Shown here: piece by piece, positions 13,705 to 62,473 of the stretch
Layout: every line of letters starts with the position of its first letter
How positions within the stretch are numbered: position 1 is the stretch's first letter
Source of the DNA: an uncultured Bacteroidia bacterium
Lineage (GTDB): Bacteria > Bacteroidota > Bacteroidia > Bacteroidales > UBA932
DNA length: 64,000 nt
NCBI GenBank assembly: GCA_902789245.1
Contig: CADAND010000009.1
Span: forward strand, 22,903-86,902
Direction: 5' to 3'
The notes under the pieces: generated by a model
The model's database searches: none
What the model saw: the letters and a program-made list of their open reading frames with translations, nothing else
What the model was told of the DNA's origin: nothing
Position numbers and translations under genes: made by a program

Positions 13705-13796
13705 GCCGGGCACAAAAAAGGGCTCCGGTGTGCCCGGAACCCTGAAATTTCGCTTCCCGGGCACGAAAAGGGGTCATTCTGTGCCCGGAAACCGCT
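13705..13796 (+). repeat. REP-like double hairpin, family A, copy 1
   Basis: A ~92-bp unit made of two hairpins, each with the stem GGGCAC/GTGCCC extended by flanking CGG bases. They are separated by a spacer containing CCTGAAATTTCGCTTCC. It is nearly identical, in the same orientation, to 15626-15717. The differences are confined almost entirely to the loop of the first hairpin. The two copies bracket the outer-membrane gene 13804-14460 and the first RAYT gene. Confidence 0.88.
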
Positions 13797-13803
13797 GAAT
13801 TAC

Positions 13804-14460
13804 CTAGAAGCGGAAGGCAAGGCCTCCCGCGAAGGAGAAGAACCAGCGCATGGGGGTCTCTGCCCCGCCGGTGCCGGTCGACCGGGTCAGGGAGCCGATC
13901 GGATCGAAGTGGAAGGCGGGCATCAGCTTGATGTCGAAGCGCCAGATGCTGTAATTGATGCACATCCCGGCATCCAGCGTCAGCGTGAACGGAGTCCGCA
14001 CATTTGTTTTGGAGCCGGGCGCGGGAGTGCCGGCGATCCAACCCGGCGTCACGCCCCCATAGAACTCGATATCGCTGAAAAGGTTCATCAGGAAGCCGGC
14101 CAGCAGGCTGCCCACAGCCCCGTCCAGCGAAGAATAGCCGTATCCGCGCATCGCGCCGGCAGCCCCAGAATACACCCGCTCCGAGGGGGTACGGGAAGGA
14201 CTCCGCCAGACCACGGAGAGCGGAAGCCCGAAGGCATGCTCCACGGTGGCGACACTGGAGGTCCACTGCAGGCCCGCGCGAAAGCCCAGCCCGGACGAAT
14301 AGAACTGGCCGTACCCGGCGGTCGTCATCAATCTTCCTCCAGTTTCATTGTAAAGTGGTTTATAGACTCCTACGCCCACAAAGGCGTCCCGCATCTGGGC
14401 CGAAGCACAGACAGTCGCCGTCGCCAGAAGGGCGACGAGCAGAATACGTTTACACTTCAT
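13804..14460 (-). CDS. Small outer-membrane beta-barrel protein inside the REP-bounded segment
   Basis: A 218-residue exported protein. I place the start at 14460 (MKCKRILLVALLATATVCASAQ), which gives a clean signal peptide cleaved after SAQ; the longer frame upstream adds a non-signal extension. The mature protein has alternating aromatic strands and ends in FSFAGGLAFRF, a typical last barrel strand with C-terminal Phe. The family cannot be named. It lies between the family-A REP copy at 13705-13796 and the RAYT gene, in the same direction as the RAYT gene and 60 bases downstream of it. It may be an ordinary host gene caught between repeats or a passenger. Confidence 0.6.
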   Translation of the reverse strand: MKCKRILLVALLATATVCASAQMRDAFVGVGVYKPLYNETGGRLMTTAGYGQFYSSGLGFRAGLQWTSSVATVEHAFGLPLSVVWRSPSRTPSERVYSGAAGAMRGYGYSSLDGAVGSLLAGFLMNLFSDIEFYGGVTPGWIAGTPAPGSKTNVRTPFTLTLDAGMCINYSIWRFDIKLMPAFHFDPIGSLTRSTGTGGAETPMRWFFSFAGGLAFRF

Positions 14461-14520
14461 ATAAAGCAATGGTTTCACTACGACCCGCCCTTTCTCCAAA
14501 AAACGCGCCACAGGTCGTGG

Positions 14521-15468
14521 CTATTTCCCAAAGAAAACGGCAAGTTTTCTTTCGTCAATGCGAAGCATTCGTTGAATCTGTTTGTTGGATGCCTTGTAAT
14601 CAAAGTGAAGCGTTCTGGCGAATTCCATCTTCTGGTCCAATGTCAGGATCTCGGGGCGGGCATTCCCATAGCTGTCGCGACAAATCTGGCGGACGATGAG
14701 ATAGAGTTCGTCGTCTGTATAGAAGACACTGTCTCCCAGCATTTTGGCAATATCCTTATACCCCTCCACGCTTCGCGAGACCAGGCTGAAATAGTGACGG
14801 GCATCACGAAAAAAGCGTTCTCCCATATACACCTCGCAAAATGAATCCGGAGAAATATAGCCATCCACCACATTTGCGGCCCCACTGCAAGCAATTGAAT
14901 GGCTGTAGAATAAGCATCTCTTCTGGCGGACAGTCAATTCGCCGAAGGTGATGTCATATCGCTGCTTTGCATCGGGATTAAAATAGTATCGACCGGCACC
15001 CCAAGGATAAGAAAACGGAGTATATTCCGGATGGACCAGATAGCCGTTGCGGTTGACATATGCGATAGAATTCCGGAGGAAGGCCAGGTCATTGATCGGG
15101 AAGATACTTGCTTGAAAAGAGCTCAGGTCTTTGACGTCCCCGGTCGATTGATAGAATCGGGACAGTTTCCTGCGGTATTTGGCAAACCACTGTTCTGCTG
15201 CTTCAAGGGAACCTTCGCCTATCACGTGCAGATGCGTGCCCATGATTTCGAAGGTGATTACATTAACATCTGTTTCCTCATAGAGGGTAGAGGCCATCAG
15301 GTTTATTGCAAACCGGAAGTCAGCATTCGTATCAAACAGGACCAGCTGGCTATCGCCAGGCGTACACAAGTGATAGAAAGGGCCGCGAGAACAAAACAGT
15401 TCTTCGCATTGACGCTCCCGTTCACTGAACGAGAGGGGGCGGTCAAGGAATTCATTGGGTGTTTTCAT
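14521..15468 (-). CDS. RAYT-type HUH (Y1) transposase, copy 1
   Basis: A REP-associated tyrosine transposase-like protein, 315 residues. The HUH motif is HLH (residues 79-81, in FEIMGTHLHV). The likely catalytic tyrosine is Tyr137 in IAYVNRNGYLV, matching the YIxxNPxxxGL region of RAYTs. A long C-terminal part ends in a helical NKQIQRMLRIDER segment that may bind DNA. The start at 15468 is preferred over 15489. It gives the same length as the second copy (20341-21288), aligns every motif, and sits at the same 21-nt distance from a conserved upstream sequence. Flanking family-A REPs at 13705 and 15626 fit the known RAYT/REP association. Strand transfer and cleavage of single-stranded REP DNA are inferred from the family. 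Confidence 0.85.
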   Translation of the reverse strand: MKTPNEFLDRPLSFSERERQCEELFCSRGPFYHLCTPGDSQLVLFDTNADFRFAINLMASTLYEETDVNVITFEIMGTHLHVIGEGSLEAAEQWFAKYRRKLSRFYQSTGDVKDLSSFQASIFPINDLAFLRNSIAYVNRNGYLVHPEYTPFSYPWGAGRYYFNPDAKQRYDITFGELTVRQKRCLFYSHSIACSGAANVVDGYISPDSFCEVYMGERFFRDARHYFSLVSRSVEGYKDIAKMLGDSVFYTDDELYLIVRQICRDSYGNARPEILTLDQKMEFARTLHFDYKASNKQIQRMLRIDERKLAVFFGK

Positions 15469-15489
15469 GACCGCAAAGGTGGGACGCAT

Positions 15490-15625: not shown

Positions 15626-15717
15626 GCCGGGCACGCTGGAGGCCGTATTTGTGCCCGGGACCCTGAAATTTCGCTTCCCGGGCACGAAAAGGGGTCATTT
15701 TGTGCCCGGCAACCGCT
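15626..15717 (+). repeat. REP-like double hairpin, family A, copy 2
   Basis: The second GGGCAC/GTGCCC double hairpin, direct repeat of 13705-13796. The second hairpin and spacer are almost identical to copy 1. The first-hairpin loop instead reads GCTGGAGGCCGTATT, close to the loop of the family-B copy at 21456. It lies upstream of RAYT copy 1 and 3' of the LytTR response regulator. Confidence 0.88.
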
Positions 15718-15738: not shown

Positions 15739-16485
15739 CTATCGCAACATCCGCTGCGACAGATATTGCTCGAACGCCGGTCGGTATGCGTCAGAAACGT
15801 GAATAAGCGCGCCGCCGATGGAGATGTCGTAGGAGCCGCCGATGGACTCGATCTGGTCCAGGGCGACGATGTAGGAGCGGTGGACCCGCATGAAACGGGC
15901 GGCGGGCAGCAGCTCCTCGACGGCCTTCATCGTGATGTGCGTGACGAGCGGCCGCTTCTCCGAGCAGAGATACAGCAGGACGTAGTCCTTCATGCCCTCG
16001 ACGTAGCGGATATCGGAGAAGGCCACCTTGTGCAGCTGGCCCTCGGACTTGACGAAGATGGAATCCTGCTGGGCGGAGGCGCTGCCGGTGCCGGGCTCGG
16101 AAGCCGTCTCGGCGCTCTCCAGCAGCTCGAACCACTGGCGGGCCTTCTCGGCCGCCTCGAGGAACTTCTGGTAGCGGATGGGCTTGAGGAGGAAGTCCAG
16201 CGCGGACACCTCGTAGCTGTCGAAGGCGTAGTCCTTGAACGCTGTGGTGAAGATGACGCGCGTCCCGTCCGGGACCATGCGCGAGAGCTCCATGCCGTTC
16301 AGGTCCGGCATCTGGATGTCCAGGAAGACCAGTTGCGGCCGCTGGGAGCGGATGGCCTCCAGCGCCGCCACGGGGTCGGTGAAGGACGCTTCCAGCGACA
16401 GGAAAGAAGTCTTGGAGATGAAGTTCTCCAACATCTTGACGGCCAGCGGCTCGTCATCGACGACAATGCAGCTCAGTGCTTTCAT
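15739..16485 (-). CDS. LytTR-family response regulator
   Basis: A two-component response regulator of 248 residues. The receiver domain (1-~120) has the acidic pair VVDDE (Asp10, Asp11), the phospho-acceptor Asp56 in FLDIQMPD, Thr in FTTAF, and Lys in LKP. After an Ala/Ser/Gly-rich linker (~125-145) comes a LytTR DNA-binding domain (FVKSEGQLHKVAFSDIRYVEG, then FMRVHRSYIV). Its start overlaps the stop of the sensor kinase gene by four bases (ATGA), so the two form an operon. Targets are not evident; the neighbouring TonB-type receptor gene is a plausible one. Confidence 0.93.
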   Translation of the reverse strand: MKALSCIVVDDEPLAVKMLENFISKTSFLSLEASFTDPVAALEAIRSQRPQLVFLDIQMPDLNGMELSRMVPDGTRVIFTTAFKDYAFDSYEVSALDFLLKPIRYQKFLEAAEKARQWFELLESAETASEPGTGSASAQQDSIFVKSEGQLHKVAFSDIRYVEGMKDYVLLYLCSEKRPLVTHITMKAVEELLPAARFMRVHRSYIVALDQIESIGGSYDISIGGALIHVSDAYRPAFEQYLSQRMLR

Positions 16486-17534
16486 GCGAGCAGGTTTTTC
16501 AGGACGATCCGGACTTGGTAGGTGCCGTCTTTCTCGTCGTGTTCGTAGCTATAGGCATCCGGGTAGATGAGCTCCAGGCGGCGCTTGAGGTTCTCCATGC
16601 CGATGCCGGAGCCGATATGGTCCTCGCCGGTCTTCTCAAAGAGGGAATTCTCGCAGCGGAACTCCAGGTCGCGGCCATCCGGGCGCAGAACGACGTGCAC
16701 GAAGGATTTCATCCGCGCGTTGACGCCGTGCTTGAAGGCGTTCTCGATGGGAGAGATGAACAGCAGCGGGGCGATCTTCACGTCGCCGGCAGGCAGGTCC
16801 CAGTCGGTCGTGACCTCGGTGAGCTCATTGCAGCGGAGCTGCATCAGGCGGATGTAATTGTTCATGAAAGCCACCTCGCCCGCGAGCGGGACCTTGTCCG
16901 TGTCCGTGTCGTACAGGGCATAGCGCAACGTGTCGCTGAGTTCGCCGATGCTCTCCTGCGCCTTGTCCGGATCAATCTGCGTCAGGGAGGAGATATTGTT
17001 CAGCGTATTGAAAAGGAAGTGCGGGTTCAGCTGGTGCTTGAGCCAGGTCAGCTCCGCCTCGGAAGCCTTGCGCTTCTCCTCCTGCAGTTGGTACTGGATG
17101 TCGTTGGAGCGGATGATGGAGCGCACGCCGATGGCCAGGAAGATGAACACCAGCTGGAAGAAACCGGCGGTGATGATGGTCGGGATGCGGAAGGCCAGGA
17201 TGTCCCGGCGCTGCAGGTGCTCTCGGATCGGCTCGGGGATTTCCCCGCGGGGATAGAAGTTCGGGGCGTTGAGCAAAGCCATCAGCAGGATATTCAGTAC
17301 GATGAACCAGACCACCTGCTTGCGGAACAGCAACTTGGGGACCAGCACGAAGTAGTTGACCAGGTATACCAGGCTGATCGGAAGAAGCATATAGAACGTG
17401 GGCCAGAAGTTCATGGCGAAGCGGTTGCTGTCGCCGGAGATCAGCCACGTTGCCGCTGCAGGCAGCAGCATCGCGCCGGCCCATATCAGGACCTGCGCGA
17501 TGTTGAGGATGAGACGGTTGTTTTTACGATTCAT
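16482..17534 (-). CDS. LytS/YehU-type sensor histidine kinase
   Basis: A 350-residue membrane kinase of the His_kinase (PF06580) type. Four hydrophobic segments lie before residue ~140 (at about 10-32, 45-70, 75-92 and 117-140). A short coiled linker follows, then the phospho-acceptor box LKHQLNPHFLFNTLNNISS with His172 and an ATP-binding part with N-box ENAFKHGV and G-box GSGIGMENLKRRL. It lacks a periplasmic sensor domain, so the signal is probably sensed in or near the membrane. It is coupled to the response regulator by an ATGA overlap. Confidence 0.92.
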   Translation of the reverse strand: MNRKNNRLILNIAQVLIWAGAMLLPAAATWLISGDSNRFAMNFWPTFYMLLPISLVYLVNYFVLVPKLLFRKQVVWFIVLNILLMALLNAPNFYPRGEIPEPIREHLQRRDILAFRIPTIITAGFFQLVFIFLAIGVRSIIRSNDIQYQLQEEKRKASEAELTWLKHQLNPHFLFNTLNNISSLTQIDPDKAQESIGELSDTLRYALYDTDTDKVPLAGEVAFMNNYIRLMQLRCNELTEVTTDWDLPAGDVKIAPLLFISPIENAFKHGVNARMKSFVHVVLRPDGRDLEFRCENSLFEKTGEDHIGSGIGMENLKRRLELIYPDAYSYEHDEKDGTYQVRIVLKNLLA

Positions 17535-20252: not shown

Positions 20253-20340
20253 GCCGGGAGCAAAAAACGGGTCTGACGCTCCCGGAATACGAAATTACTG
20301 GTTTCTGGGAGCAAAATGGTATGTCTCTGCTCCCGGAAAT
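20253..20340 (+). repeat. REP-like double hairpin, family B, copy 1
   Basis: Two hairpins with the stem GGGAGC/GCTCCC, separated by a spacer with ACGAAATTACTGG. It has the same layout as family A (for example CAAAAAA after the first stem in both A copy 1 and this copy) but different stem bases. It ends directly at the stop codon of RAYT copy 2. Confidence 0.85.
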
Positions 20341-21288
20341 CTATCTCCCGAAGAGTGCGATTATGTCGCGTTCTTCCAGTCGCAGCATTCTTTGAATCTG
20401 CTTGTTCCCCGCCTGATACTCGAAGTGCATCTTCTTGGCCATCTCCAGTTTTGCTTCTTTGGGCAAGGAGGCCGGACGTGAATTGTCGTAAGCATCCTTA
20501 CAGAGTTGCCGCACGATGAGAAACAGTTCATCATCGGTGTAGTATACAAGGTCTCCTAGTTGGGATGCAATACTGCGATACACTTCTACATTCCTTGATA
20601 TGAGGAAGAAGTAATTTCTTGCGCTTTGGAACATTCTTTCCGCGAGAGCCAGGTTGCAAAAAGATGACGGTAGAATGTAACCGTTCAAAACAAGGTGGTC
20701 ATCCGGATAATCAATGGTATGGCTTCGGAATAATTGTCTTTTCTCCCGAAAATTCAGATTTCCGTACCGGGTTCCTTGCAAGAATGGGATGTCGGGGTTA
20801 TAGAAGAATCGATTGGCTCCCCAGGGATAGGAAAAAGGTGTATAACGTGTATCTACCAAATAACCATTCCGGTTCACATAGGCTATCGTATTTCGGAGCG
20901 TTTCCAAATTGTCAATCGGAAATAGGGACGCATTGAAACCGGTCAAGTCTTTAACGATGCCCTTGTCCATGAAATACCGTTGTAACCGTCGCTTAAACAA
21001 GTTAAACCATGCAATTATGCGTTCTCTTTCTCCAACCATAACCGCGTGCAGATGGTTCTTCATAATCTCAAACGTCAAGATTGTTACGCCATCGGACTGC
21101 CAGGTGCAAAAAGCAGCGAGATTCATCGCAAAGCGAAAGTCCTCTTCTTCCTCAAAAAGAATTTCCGTCTGCCCGCCGGGTGTACACAGGTGATAATATG
21201 GGCCGTTATTCATAAAAGCGAATTCGCACTGACTTTCTGCTTCGTAGAAAGACAGCGCACGTGGTGTTTTGTTGCGAGATGTATCCAT
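20341..21288 (-). CDS. RAYT-type HUH (Y1) transposase, copy 2
   Basis: A 315-residue RAYT-like protein, homologous along its whole length to 14521-15468 but clearly diverged. HUH motif HLH is at residues 79-81 (FEIMKNHLHAV) and the candidate catalytic tyrosine is Tyr137 (IAYVNRNGYLV), the same positions as in copy 1. Shared blocks include YHLCTPG, FRFAMNL, TPFSYPWGA and the C-terminal NKQIQRMLR. The N-terminal block YYHLCTPGG is shared with copy 1 and may be characteristic of this Bacteroidota subgroup. It is flanked by family-B REPs at 20253-20340 and 21456-21541. The base composition (more A/T than the host genes) suggests acquisition. Confidence 0.86.
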   Translation of the reverse strand: MDTSRNKTPRALSFYEAESQCEFAFMNNGPYYHLCTPGGQTEILFEEEEDFRFAMNLAAFCTWQSDGVTILTFEIMKNHLHAVMVGERERIIAWFNLFKRRLQRYFMDKGIVKDLTGFNASLFPIDNLETLRNTIAYVNRNGYLVDTRYTPFSYPWGANRFFYNPDIPFLQGTRYGNLNFREKRQLFRSHTIDYPDDHLVLNGYILPSSFCNLALAERMFQSARNYFFLISRNVEVYRSIASQLGDLVYYTDDELFLIVRQLCKDAYDNSRPASLPKEAKLEMAKKMHFEYQAGNKQIQRMLRLEERDIIALFGR

Positions 21289-21309
21289 GGCAGCAAAACT
21301 AAAAGTTAA

Positions 21310-21339
21310 TAGCCGATTTATTTCCCGATTAATCGTTTA
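21310..21339 (-). promoter_or_regulatory. Conserved 30-nt sequence upstream of RAYT copy 2
   Basis: It differs from 15490-15519 at one position only, although the two RAYT proteins and the rest of the flanks have diverged. It contains CGATTAATCG (21326-21335) and lies 21 nt before the start codon. Confidence 0.7.
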
Positions 21340-21455
21340 TTATTTTGGGACTACGTAATACTCCAGCACACTGAACGTTGCGAACCGGCATCATTGTTTC
21401 GAAACGCACAAAACATTCGCAACATACTCTTGTTTGAATGATTCATGTGGTCTCT

Positions 21456-21541
21456 GCGGGAGCACTGGAGGCCTGATTTGCTCCCGGCGAACGCATTTTT
21501 CTTATTTCGGGAGCAAAATGGGGGCTATTTGCTCCCGGTCA
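21456..21541 (+). repeat. REP-like double hairpin, family B, copy 2
   Basis: Two GGGAGC/GCTCCC hairpins. The first loop reads ACTGGAGGCCTGATTT, close to family-A copy 2 at 15626. The second hairpin overlaps the last codons and stop of the LytTR gene 21525-22241 (its C-terminal TGSK and TAG come from the stem). It is a direct repeat with 20253-20340. Confidence 0.85.
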
Positions 21542-61802: not shown

Positions 61803-61877
61803 GGTGTGGTAGTTCAGTTTGGTTAGAATGCCGGCCTGTCACGCCGGAGGTCGCGAGTTCGAGCCTCGTCCGCACCG
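61803..61877 (+). tRNA. tRNA-Asp (anticodon GTC)
   Basis: A full cloverleaf can be folded. The acceptor is GGTGTGG/CCGCACC and the D-arm is GTTC/GAAT. The anticodon arm CCGGC-CTGTCAC-GCCGG has anticodon GTC. The T-arm is GCGAG-TTCGAGC-CTCGT and the discriminator base is G. The CCA end is not encoded. A Rho-independent hairpin follows directly. The 3' part, from the T-loop onward, is repeated 178 bp downstream. Confidence 0.95.
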
Positions 61878-61919
61878 CTGAAAAGGAGCAAAAACCTGAT
61901 GGTTTTCGCTCCTTTTCTC
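61859..61919 (+). repeat. 61-bp direct repeat, copy 1 (tRNA-Asp 3' end and terminator)
   Basis: From the T-loop (TCGAGCC) to the end of the terminator hairpin, identical to 62037-62097. A tRNA 3' end repeated downstream is the normal trace of site-specific integration. Confidence 0.9.
61882..61917 (+). terminator. Terminator of tRNA-Asp
   Basis: AAAAGGAGC/GCTCCTTTT, with further AAAACC/GGTTTT pairing around TGAT, 5 bases after the tRNA. The same hairpin is found in the second copy of the repeat at about 62060-62095. Confidence 0.85.
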
Positions 61920-62036
61920 ATTTTAGGCCGTTGCTGAACTCGCGACCGGATGCTCCCCTGTAATAGGGGAGCTGGCCGACCGGGAGGGAGGGCTGAGGGG
62001 TCATAGATGGCGCGAACTGCCCGCCGCCAGGCGGGC
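61920..62036. other. Short spacer between the two 61-bp repeats, with internal palindromes
   Basis: The 117-bp spacer has no gene. It holds GCTCCCCT/AGGGGAGC around GTAAT, a CCCGCC/GGCGGG hairpin next to the second repeat, and GAACTCGCGACC (61936-61947), the exact complement of a tRNA T-arm segment. Its G-rich run (GGGAGGGAGGGCTGAGGGGTC) resembles the middle of P1 in rlmI. Confidence 0.6.
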
Positions 62037-62097
62037 TCGAGCCTCGTCCGCACCGCTGAAAAGGAGCAAAAACCTGATGGTTTTCGCTCCTTTTCTC
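62037..62097 (+). repeat. 61-bp direct repeat, copy 2 (duplicated tRNA-Asp 3' end)
   Basis: A perfect copy of 61859-61919, without the tRNA 5' part, so not a functional tRNA. It lies 178 bp downstream of copy 1. Confidence 0.9.
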
Positions 62098-62473
62098 TGT
62101 TATGCTGTTTCCGCTCGGACAGTCGGATAAAAACCTTGGGGAAGATCACTTTACGGATGGCGGACCTTCCCCACGGAATGTGGGTTCTACAATAGTCAGT
62201 GCGGGTTTCGCTGGAGAAGGTGTCAGGCATGAAATGAGACCTTCCCCGGAGGAGACATGTCCCCAAATCTCTCCCCTTTATGTTCGCCGGGAGCGGAGAG
62301 GGCCTTCAGCGCTCCCGGAACACGATTATTTCGACTTCCGGGAGCAAATACCGGCTTTTCTGCTCCCGGCTATACACCGTTCCCGTCCTGCTCCCCGCGT
62401 CCCAAAATCTGTCCCGTTAGAAGCAAAACAGGGGGTAGAATGTCATTTCCGGATTTAGGTTGACTCCGGCTGG
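62098..62473. other. Gene-free stretch with an orphan REP
   Basis: About 375 bp without a plausible gene between the duplicated tRNA end and the IS element. The only clear structure is the family-B REP at 62286-62370. Short open frames here have no family-like sequence. Confidence 0.6.
62286..62370 (+). repeat. REP-like double hairpin, family B, orphan copy 3
   Basis: Two GGGAGC/GCTCCC hairpins with the usual spacer (ACACGATTATTTCGACTTCC), 41 kb from the second RAYT gene. It has no transposase next to it, so it is a candidate for a copy moved in trans. Confidence 0.82.

Follow-up and report, generated by a model that had tools for sequence, protein, structure and literature searches.

Hairpin doublets of a RAYT-like transposase group in Bacteroidales: stems that follow the enzyme among close relatives and a register near 51 bp

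Introduction

When a genome holds several related transposases, each flanked by its own hairpins, which parts of the hairpin change with the enzyme and which stay as they are? The question is raised by a locus of a bacterium related to ruminant-gut species, in which two paralogous genes, designated here RAYT-A and RAYT-B, are flanked by hairpin doublets with different stems. Comparison of close relatives suggests that the stem changes along with the enzyme and that the distance between hairpins, about 51 bases, is kept. Co-evolution of RAYTs with their REPs has been published for gammaproteobacteria (PMC2817692, PMC3686654), and REP recognition through stem, loop and GTAG has been studied (PMC8266576), as the accessible text of these papers describes. 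A search for a published account of the present arrangement, with most subscription journals outside its range, returned known RAYT work and one paper on pig-gut MAGs. Co-divergence as such is already known, and it is the transposase group and its conserved 51-bp register that look new.

Results and Discussion

RAYT-A, RAYT-B and their relatives in the same genome

The window – the whole 64-kb stretch that was analysed (C9:22903-86902) – is part of a 2.28-Mb genome in 28 contigs. The genes and hairpins discussed are as follows.

20341-21288, minus strand: RAYT-B, a 315-aa HUH/Y1-type transposase (H79xH81, Y137)
20256-20283: B hairpin 1 of the doublet 3' of RAYT-B (GGGAGC/GCTCCC)
20307-20334: B hairpin 2 of the doublet 3' of RAYT-B, 51 bp from hairpin 1
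21458-21485: B hairpin 1 of the doublet 5' of RAYT-B, its loop containing CTGGAGGCC
21509-21536: B hairpin 2 of the doublet 5' of RAYT-B, 51 bp from hairpin 1
14521-15489, minus strand: RAYT-A, a paralogue 52% identical to RAYT-B
13708-13735: A hairpin (GGGCAC/GTGCCC), first of the doublet 734 bp past the RAYT-A stop
13759-13786: A hairpin, second of the doublet past the RAYT-A stop
15629-15656: A hairpin, first of the doublet 5' of RAYT-A, its loop containing CTGGAGGCC
15680-15707: A hairpin, second of the doublet 5' of RAYT-A
62289-62316: dispersed B doublet, hairpin 1
62340-62367: dispersed B doublet, hairpin 2, 51 bp on

The initial annotation described double GGGAGC/GCTCCC hairpins around RAYT-B, and both sides of the gene bear this out by coordinates and by comparison with shuffled sequence. 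All four flanking hairpins have perfect stems in the layout GGGAGC-16 nt-GCTCCC; the pattern CGGGAGC-N4-30-GCTCCCG has five matches in the window vs a mean of 0.06 in shuffles, and the A stem pattern has four vs a mean of 0.00. Folded as single-stranded DNA, the two flanking B doublets give z-values of -5.43 and -4.82 (200 shuffles each); for none of the four A and B doublets does any of the 200 shuffles fold as well. Repetition of the stem allows a doublet to form either two small hairpins or one long hairpin, and the folding optima include both forms. The 6-bp cores, GGGCAC in A and GGGAGC in B, differ at two pairs, and the compensating nature of these differences, also noted in the initial annotation, holds in both arms of all four flanking hairpins of each family. 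Additional to that annotation are a third member (C), the 51-bp register and the dispersed B doublet at 62289-62367.

A search of the same genome with RAYT-B yields eight matches: B, A, C, L004, L005, L006 and L007/L008. Paralogue C (C1:225260, 52% identity) has the stem AGGGGC/GCCCCT. The hairpins of A, B and C all consist of a 6-bp core stem, a 16-nt loop and the 6-bp return stem, and stand 51 bp apart, in doublets at A and B and in triplets at C. Identity to RAYT-B is 40% for L004, 28% for L005 and 25% for L006. The hairpin-pair test described below finds no recognisable doublet at L004 (C8:61154); as for the outgroups, L005 fails at 50-53 bp and L006 passes at 52 bp, with the stem GGCGCC. 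L007/L008 (C22:12806-13614) is one split RAYT homologue gene in two fragments, probably a decayed copy.

A 235-aa ORF (13804-14511, minus strand) separates RAYT-A from its distal doublet, which lies 734 bp past the stop, compared with a nearest hairpin within 20 bp at 45 of 72 loci; this ORF may have been inserted later or may be a passenger gene. On the other side, LytTR/kinase genes (15739-17534) adjoin RAYT-A, and homologues of them lie near two B orthologues (L051, L052) and a C-type homologue (L053). These common neighbours suggest that, at a single site, RAYT genes have been locally duplicated or replaced.

Protein class and relation to known systems

The best match of an AlphaFold model of RAYT-B (mean pLDDT 77) in a Foldseek search of the PDB is the REP-associated tyrosine transposase 4er8 (E 5e-3, probability 1.00; none reaches E 1e-3), and the second is ISDra2 TnpA, which a profile search also finds, at E 0.016. 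The predicted fold is therefore that of a Y1 transposase, by a modest match. Neither RAYT-A nor RAYT-B has a meaningful match in Pfam or NCBIfam; Y1_Tnp of Pfam matches three of seven group members at E up to 1, and the match examined in detail, that of L006, stays below the Pfam cut-off. Among 118 aligned homologues H79 is present in 118, H81 in 117 and Y137 in 118. From the motif order Y137 is the presumed catalytic tyrosine, and since the HUH and Tyr residues are nearly invariant, RAYT-B is likely to have cleavage activity.

RAYT-B shares the core fold and the HUH-Tyr site with the IS200/IS605 TnpA proteins (ISDra2, IS608), and differs from them in length (about 315 aa vs about 140 aa) and in having hairpin doublets at both ends. 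IS200/IS605 elements are recognised by near-identical autonomous copies in one genome; of RAYT-B there are none in its own genome, where the other homologues are at most 52% identical. With RAYTs and REPtrons the following features are shared: an HUH-Tyr gene is flanked by palindromes that occur elsewhere in the genome too, each RAYT has its own REP, and co-evolution is reported (PMC2817692, PMC8266576). The REPs treated in the accessible text of these two papers carry a GT(A/G)G head and alternate in orientation within BIMEs, whereas those described here show no such head, keep a doublet register near 51 bp and form long arrays that are mostly direct. We conclude that RAYT-B is probably a transposase of the TnpA-REP (RAYT) kind, specific for single-stranded DNA, which together with its own doublets and a co-diverging stem constitutes a REPtron-like unit.

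Two further published groups are among the closest. Bacteroidetes TnpA-Y1 subclass 2.6, equivalent to Bertels RAYT group 5, likewise has 'atypical' hairpins without GTAG, with copies elsewhere in the genome; its Y motif, in the accessible part of the report, is YIH[QN]NP, whereas that of the present group is YVNRNG-type, with hardly any Pfam Y1_Tnp match (PMC6006769). By their Y motifs (YVFRNP and YIHRNP, respectively), the own-genome paralogues L005 and L006 look closer to subclass 2.6 as there described. In Pseudomonas and Stenotrophomonas, RAYT duplication is accompanied within a lineage by matching REP diversification, and REP class switching occurs; these bacteria belong to another phylum, their REPs have another architecture, and the accessible text describes no fixed register (PMC3686654).

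The homologue set

Of 299 genomes sampled from the family to which the window belongs, 163 have homologues (E up to 0.001), representing 12 of 25 genera; when 295 genomes were drawn from the order and 296 from the phylum, the only ones with matches at 1e-20 were the own genome and another of its genus. A first set of 100 loci (97 distinct) comprised four from the own genome, seven from Bacteroidales MAGs (yak rumen, buffalo omasum and roe-deer rumen among them) and 89 from family genomes. Loci were fetched mostly down the score ranking and hence form no random sample; several partial matches at contig ends and most low-scoring matches were left out. Duplicates L059, L060 and L096 were removed before counting, leaving 97, and L091 was removed too from the enlarged set; also dropped were loci without a stem call and, in the pairing and head tests, those with odd loops. 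The enlarged set gave a tree of 118 homologues, 101 of them with a stem call and mostly from one bacterial family. Doublets were recognised by a hairpin-pair score, for which two hairpins with four agreeing arms at a spacing of 50-53 are evaluated and at least 32 is a pass.

Stems follow the transposase among close relatives

The initial annotation proposed that each transposase and its repeats diverge as lock and key. Across the 101 stem-called loci, stem types are not randomly mixed among transposase clades, and the proposal is supported for close relatives, below 0.5 changes per site; beyond that, agreement is near background. Below 0.25 changes per site the stem is identical at 6/6 positions in 13/13 transposase pairs; at 0.25-0.5 it agrees at five or six of six positions in 34/38 pairs, and above 0.5 the mean agreement falls to 3.4-4.0 of 6. 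Stem similarity declines as protein distance grows (Mantel r -0.175, with 0/5000 permutations as strong; r -0.208 in the first 82-locus set, in which nearest neighbours score 4.82 vs 3.60 +- 0.14). GGGAGC is retained by two B orthologues (L051, L052; 83% identical) from MAGs of yak rumen and buffalo omasum; in a C-type homologue from a roe-deer MAG the core GGGGC persists, with the outer A-T pair often altered.

Could such agreement be linkage only, the locus being inherited whole and the protein exerting no selection on the stem? Linkage alone must explain part of the likeness between orthologous stems: loop sequence is also common to close orthologues (10.8 of 14 positions below 0.25 changes per site), and the B orthologues have the same LytTR/kinase genes in their neighbourhood. 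At 0.25-0.5 changes per site, however, loops have come near background (8.8 vs about 7.8 of 14) while stems still agree at 5.5 of 6. Position by position, agreement at positions 8-15 from the hairpin centre is 76-98% in 46 close pairs and 25-51% in far pairs; the close-minus-far excess is 0.34-0.73 there, as compared with -0.02 to 0.34 within the loop and 0.05-0.23 farther from the centre. The arms also change together: at 52 even-loop loci, 84-95% of the pairs at positions 8-12 are Watson-Crick, vs 5-50% when the partner is slid, and at position 9 all four pair types occur. A stem excess larger than that of the loop, with Watson-Crick pairing maintained by varied pair types, points to a constraint on the stem that goes beyond linkage, and we regard linkage as the sole cause as unlikely.

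Some findings speak against a strict stem code. Identical stems also recur between distant proteins, in 146/3051 far pairs from different genomes (82-locus set). GGGCAC is found in distant clades (L071/L078/L092, L079, L116) and GGGAGC in L100; L100 and L071/L078/L092 bring both stems together in a second, distant clade, by convergence or because stem space is limited. The GGGCAC array of L116 has spacings of 42, 51 and 52, not a constant 51.

Do paralogues of the same genome avoid sharing a stem? Same-genome pairs with at least five matches number 3 vs 9.46 in the first set (116/20000; 147/20000 on the mean) and 5 vs 10.46 with more loci (304/10000; 608/10000 on the mean); a label shuffle on the larger set gives 248/5000 on the fraction and 1431/5000 on the mean. 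As the signal weakens with more loci, we treat it as a hint only.

Loops and spacers

The initial annotation also pointed to loop and spacer sequences common to A and B. These are real at the two loci: the A loop at 15629 and the B loop at 21458 both contain CTGGAGGCC, an A-run follows the first stem in the hairpins at 13708 (A) and 20256 (B), and CGAAATT, present in the left B spacer, recurs on the opposite strand in both A spacers. In likeness to the B loops, no other of the 81 loci compared ranks above A and two rank above C, with L051, an orthologue of B, lower. The sharing is not a general feature within genomes: homogenisation of loops, which A, B and C had suggested, was rejected (7.56 vs 7.80 of 14 in 36 same-genome pairs), and tracking of the whole protein tree by loop sequence is not significant (151/2000 permutations).

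A register near 51 bp

A hairpin-pair score of at least 32 is attained at 84/100 loci (82/97 distinct) at spacings of 50-53, by 0/300 shuffled flanks (largest 30) and, as a control, by 1/100 ORF interiors; a score of exactly 32 (nine of the 84 passing loci) can arise from a tandem repeat with an imperfect stem. By this score a doublet is missing at 15 of the 97 distinct loci, L004 included, several of which have flanks cut by contig ends. When all spacings of 30-120 are allowed, 75 of the 97 score at least 33, and the smallest best spacing is 51 in 54 of these, 52 in nine, 50 in six and 101-104 in six. Nineteen of 20 additional, lower-scoring group members pass at 50-53 bp, bringing the total to 101 of 117 distinct loci, mostly at 51.

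The stem is present on both sides of the gene at 64 of 82 called loci; the nearest upstream hairpin begins 120-148 bp before the start codon at 31/74 loci, and the nearest downstream hairpin at most 20 bp past the stop at 45/72. Among 462 same-stem neighbour hairpins less than 60 bp apart (a count that includes two duplicate loci), a distance of 51 accounts for 359, 52 for 76 and 50 for 13. Arrays with at least four neighbouring pairs (n=33) are direct in 28 cases, inverted in one and unclear in four. At the even-loop loci neither a strand-specific guide nor a strand-specific conserved head of the GTAG or GT(A/G)G kind at the hairpin foot was found.

Twenty Y1-like homologues from the same family with still lower scores, 12 of which come from genomes sampled before, have no hairpin pair at 50-53 bp (largest score 27). 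We do not regard them as a set without any hairpin pairs, as six attain 32 at other spacings (73 in three, and 74, 65 and 40 in one each; the largest of 40 shuffles is 30). In 6/20 the strongest period is that of direct repeats of 73-74 bp; L179, L183, L187 and L189 (also L177, L182) have direct repeats or hairpin pairs with this period. From these pairs and repeats, the neighbouring homologue group may have a register of its own, at about 73-74 bp.

Might the hairpins instead serve the host, as terminators or as nucleoid or regulator sites, with the gene as a passenger? Fifty-one bp is about five helical turns, which would suit a protein binding double-stranded DNA. Yet the stems follow the transposase clade, same-genome pairs agree at five or more of six stem positions in only 5/47 cases, and pairs at 50-53 bp are absent from the 20 Y1-like homologues just described; we find a host function highly improbable.

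Whether the transposase measures the distance between hairpins is a question that the near-constant register raises, and one that bears on how REP arrays grow. We tentatively propose, as a possible rather than a probable reading, that the enzyme measures about 51 nt between hairpins and amplifies them in 51-nt steps (about 73 in the neighbouring group), that the group is a family-restricted radiation, and that its stems are an address code distinct among paralogues of one genome. A serious alternative, to which we give somewhat less than an even chance, is that the arrays are simple tandem duplications and that the 51 bp arose by chance in a single ancestral unit and have been inherited since, rather than being measured by the enzyme. 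The direct orientation of 28/33 arrays fits it, as do the direct repeats at 73-74 bp in some homologues outside the group, and one ancestral register would pass to all descendants. It accounts less readily for a register that stays at 50-52 though most other sequence of the unit has diverged, and that is held in two-hairpin doublets and dispersed copies as well.

Proposed mechanism

In our preferred reading RAYT-B and its doublets are a REPtron-like unit, with the 51-bp hairpin register on each side of the gene. The enzyme would recognise the pairs of its own stem in single-stranded DNA, mainly at positions 8-13 from the hairpin centre, and would use Tyr137 to cleave next to the hairpin. It would then copy or move hairpin units as long as one register (51 nt), giving rise to dispersed doublets and direct arrays. 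A, B and C would derive from gene duplication, after which enzyme and stem would have changed together by paired substitutions, with the layout and some loop sequence kept. With about 100 naturally matched pairs of transposase and hairpin stem, many of them from the same genome, the code by which HUH enzymes recognise hairpins becomes directly testable.

Dispersed and composite copies

The flanking hairpins are also dispersed in the own genome, the one genome in which dispersal was examined. In the genome-wide pattern searches, 4/13 A matches (lengths 20-27 nt), 1/14 B and 1/22 C matches were set aside, and reversed control patterns gave 2, 3 and 13 matches. Four B doublets away from RAYT-B are 94-100% alike over 79 nt and a fifth is more divergent (65-66%). 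Their left flanks are mostly unlike, those on contigs C2 and C13 sharing about 10 nt, and the right flank beside the hairpin is common to three; their loops differ from those of the gene-flanking copies. The B copies had been guessed from their position at contig ends to be parts of rRNA operons, an idea dropped after the flanks were examined.

A perfect 28-nt A hairpin is present at five dispersed sites, four of which (L023, L026, L028 and L029, on contigs C1, C3, C5 and C7) are composites with C hairpins in a fixed order: C hairpins, a 14-nt junction, then A hairpins. This joining of A and C stems limits the lock-and-key reading and, like the differing loops of the dispersed B copies, weighs against the proposed mechanism. 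GTAG- and CGTC-tagged repeats are described in the accessible text of PMC3733652, and in three of the four composites a CGTCATTCGCCGG-type palindrome resembling the CGTC-tagged repeats lies directly upstream.

Close to the dispersed B doublet of the window, at 61853-62097, the 3' end of a tRNA-Asp gene and the hairpin that follows it are repeated 178 bp downstream, and nearby are ORFs with what we take to be a resemblance to IS3-type transposase.
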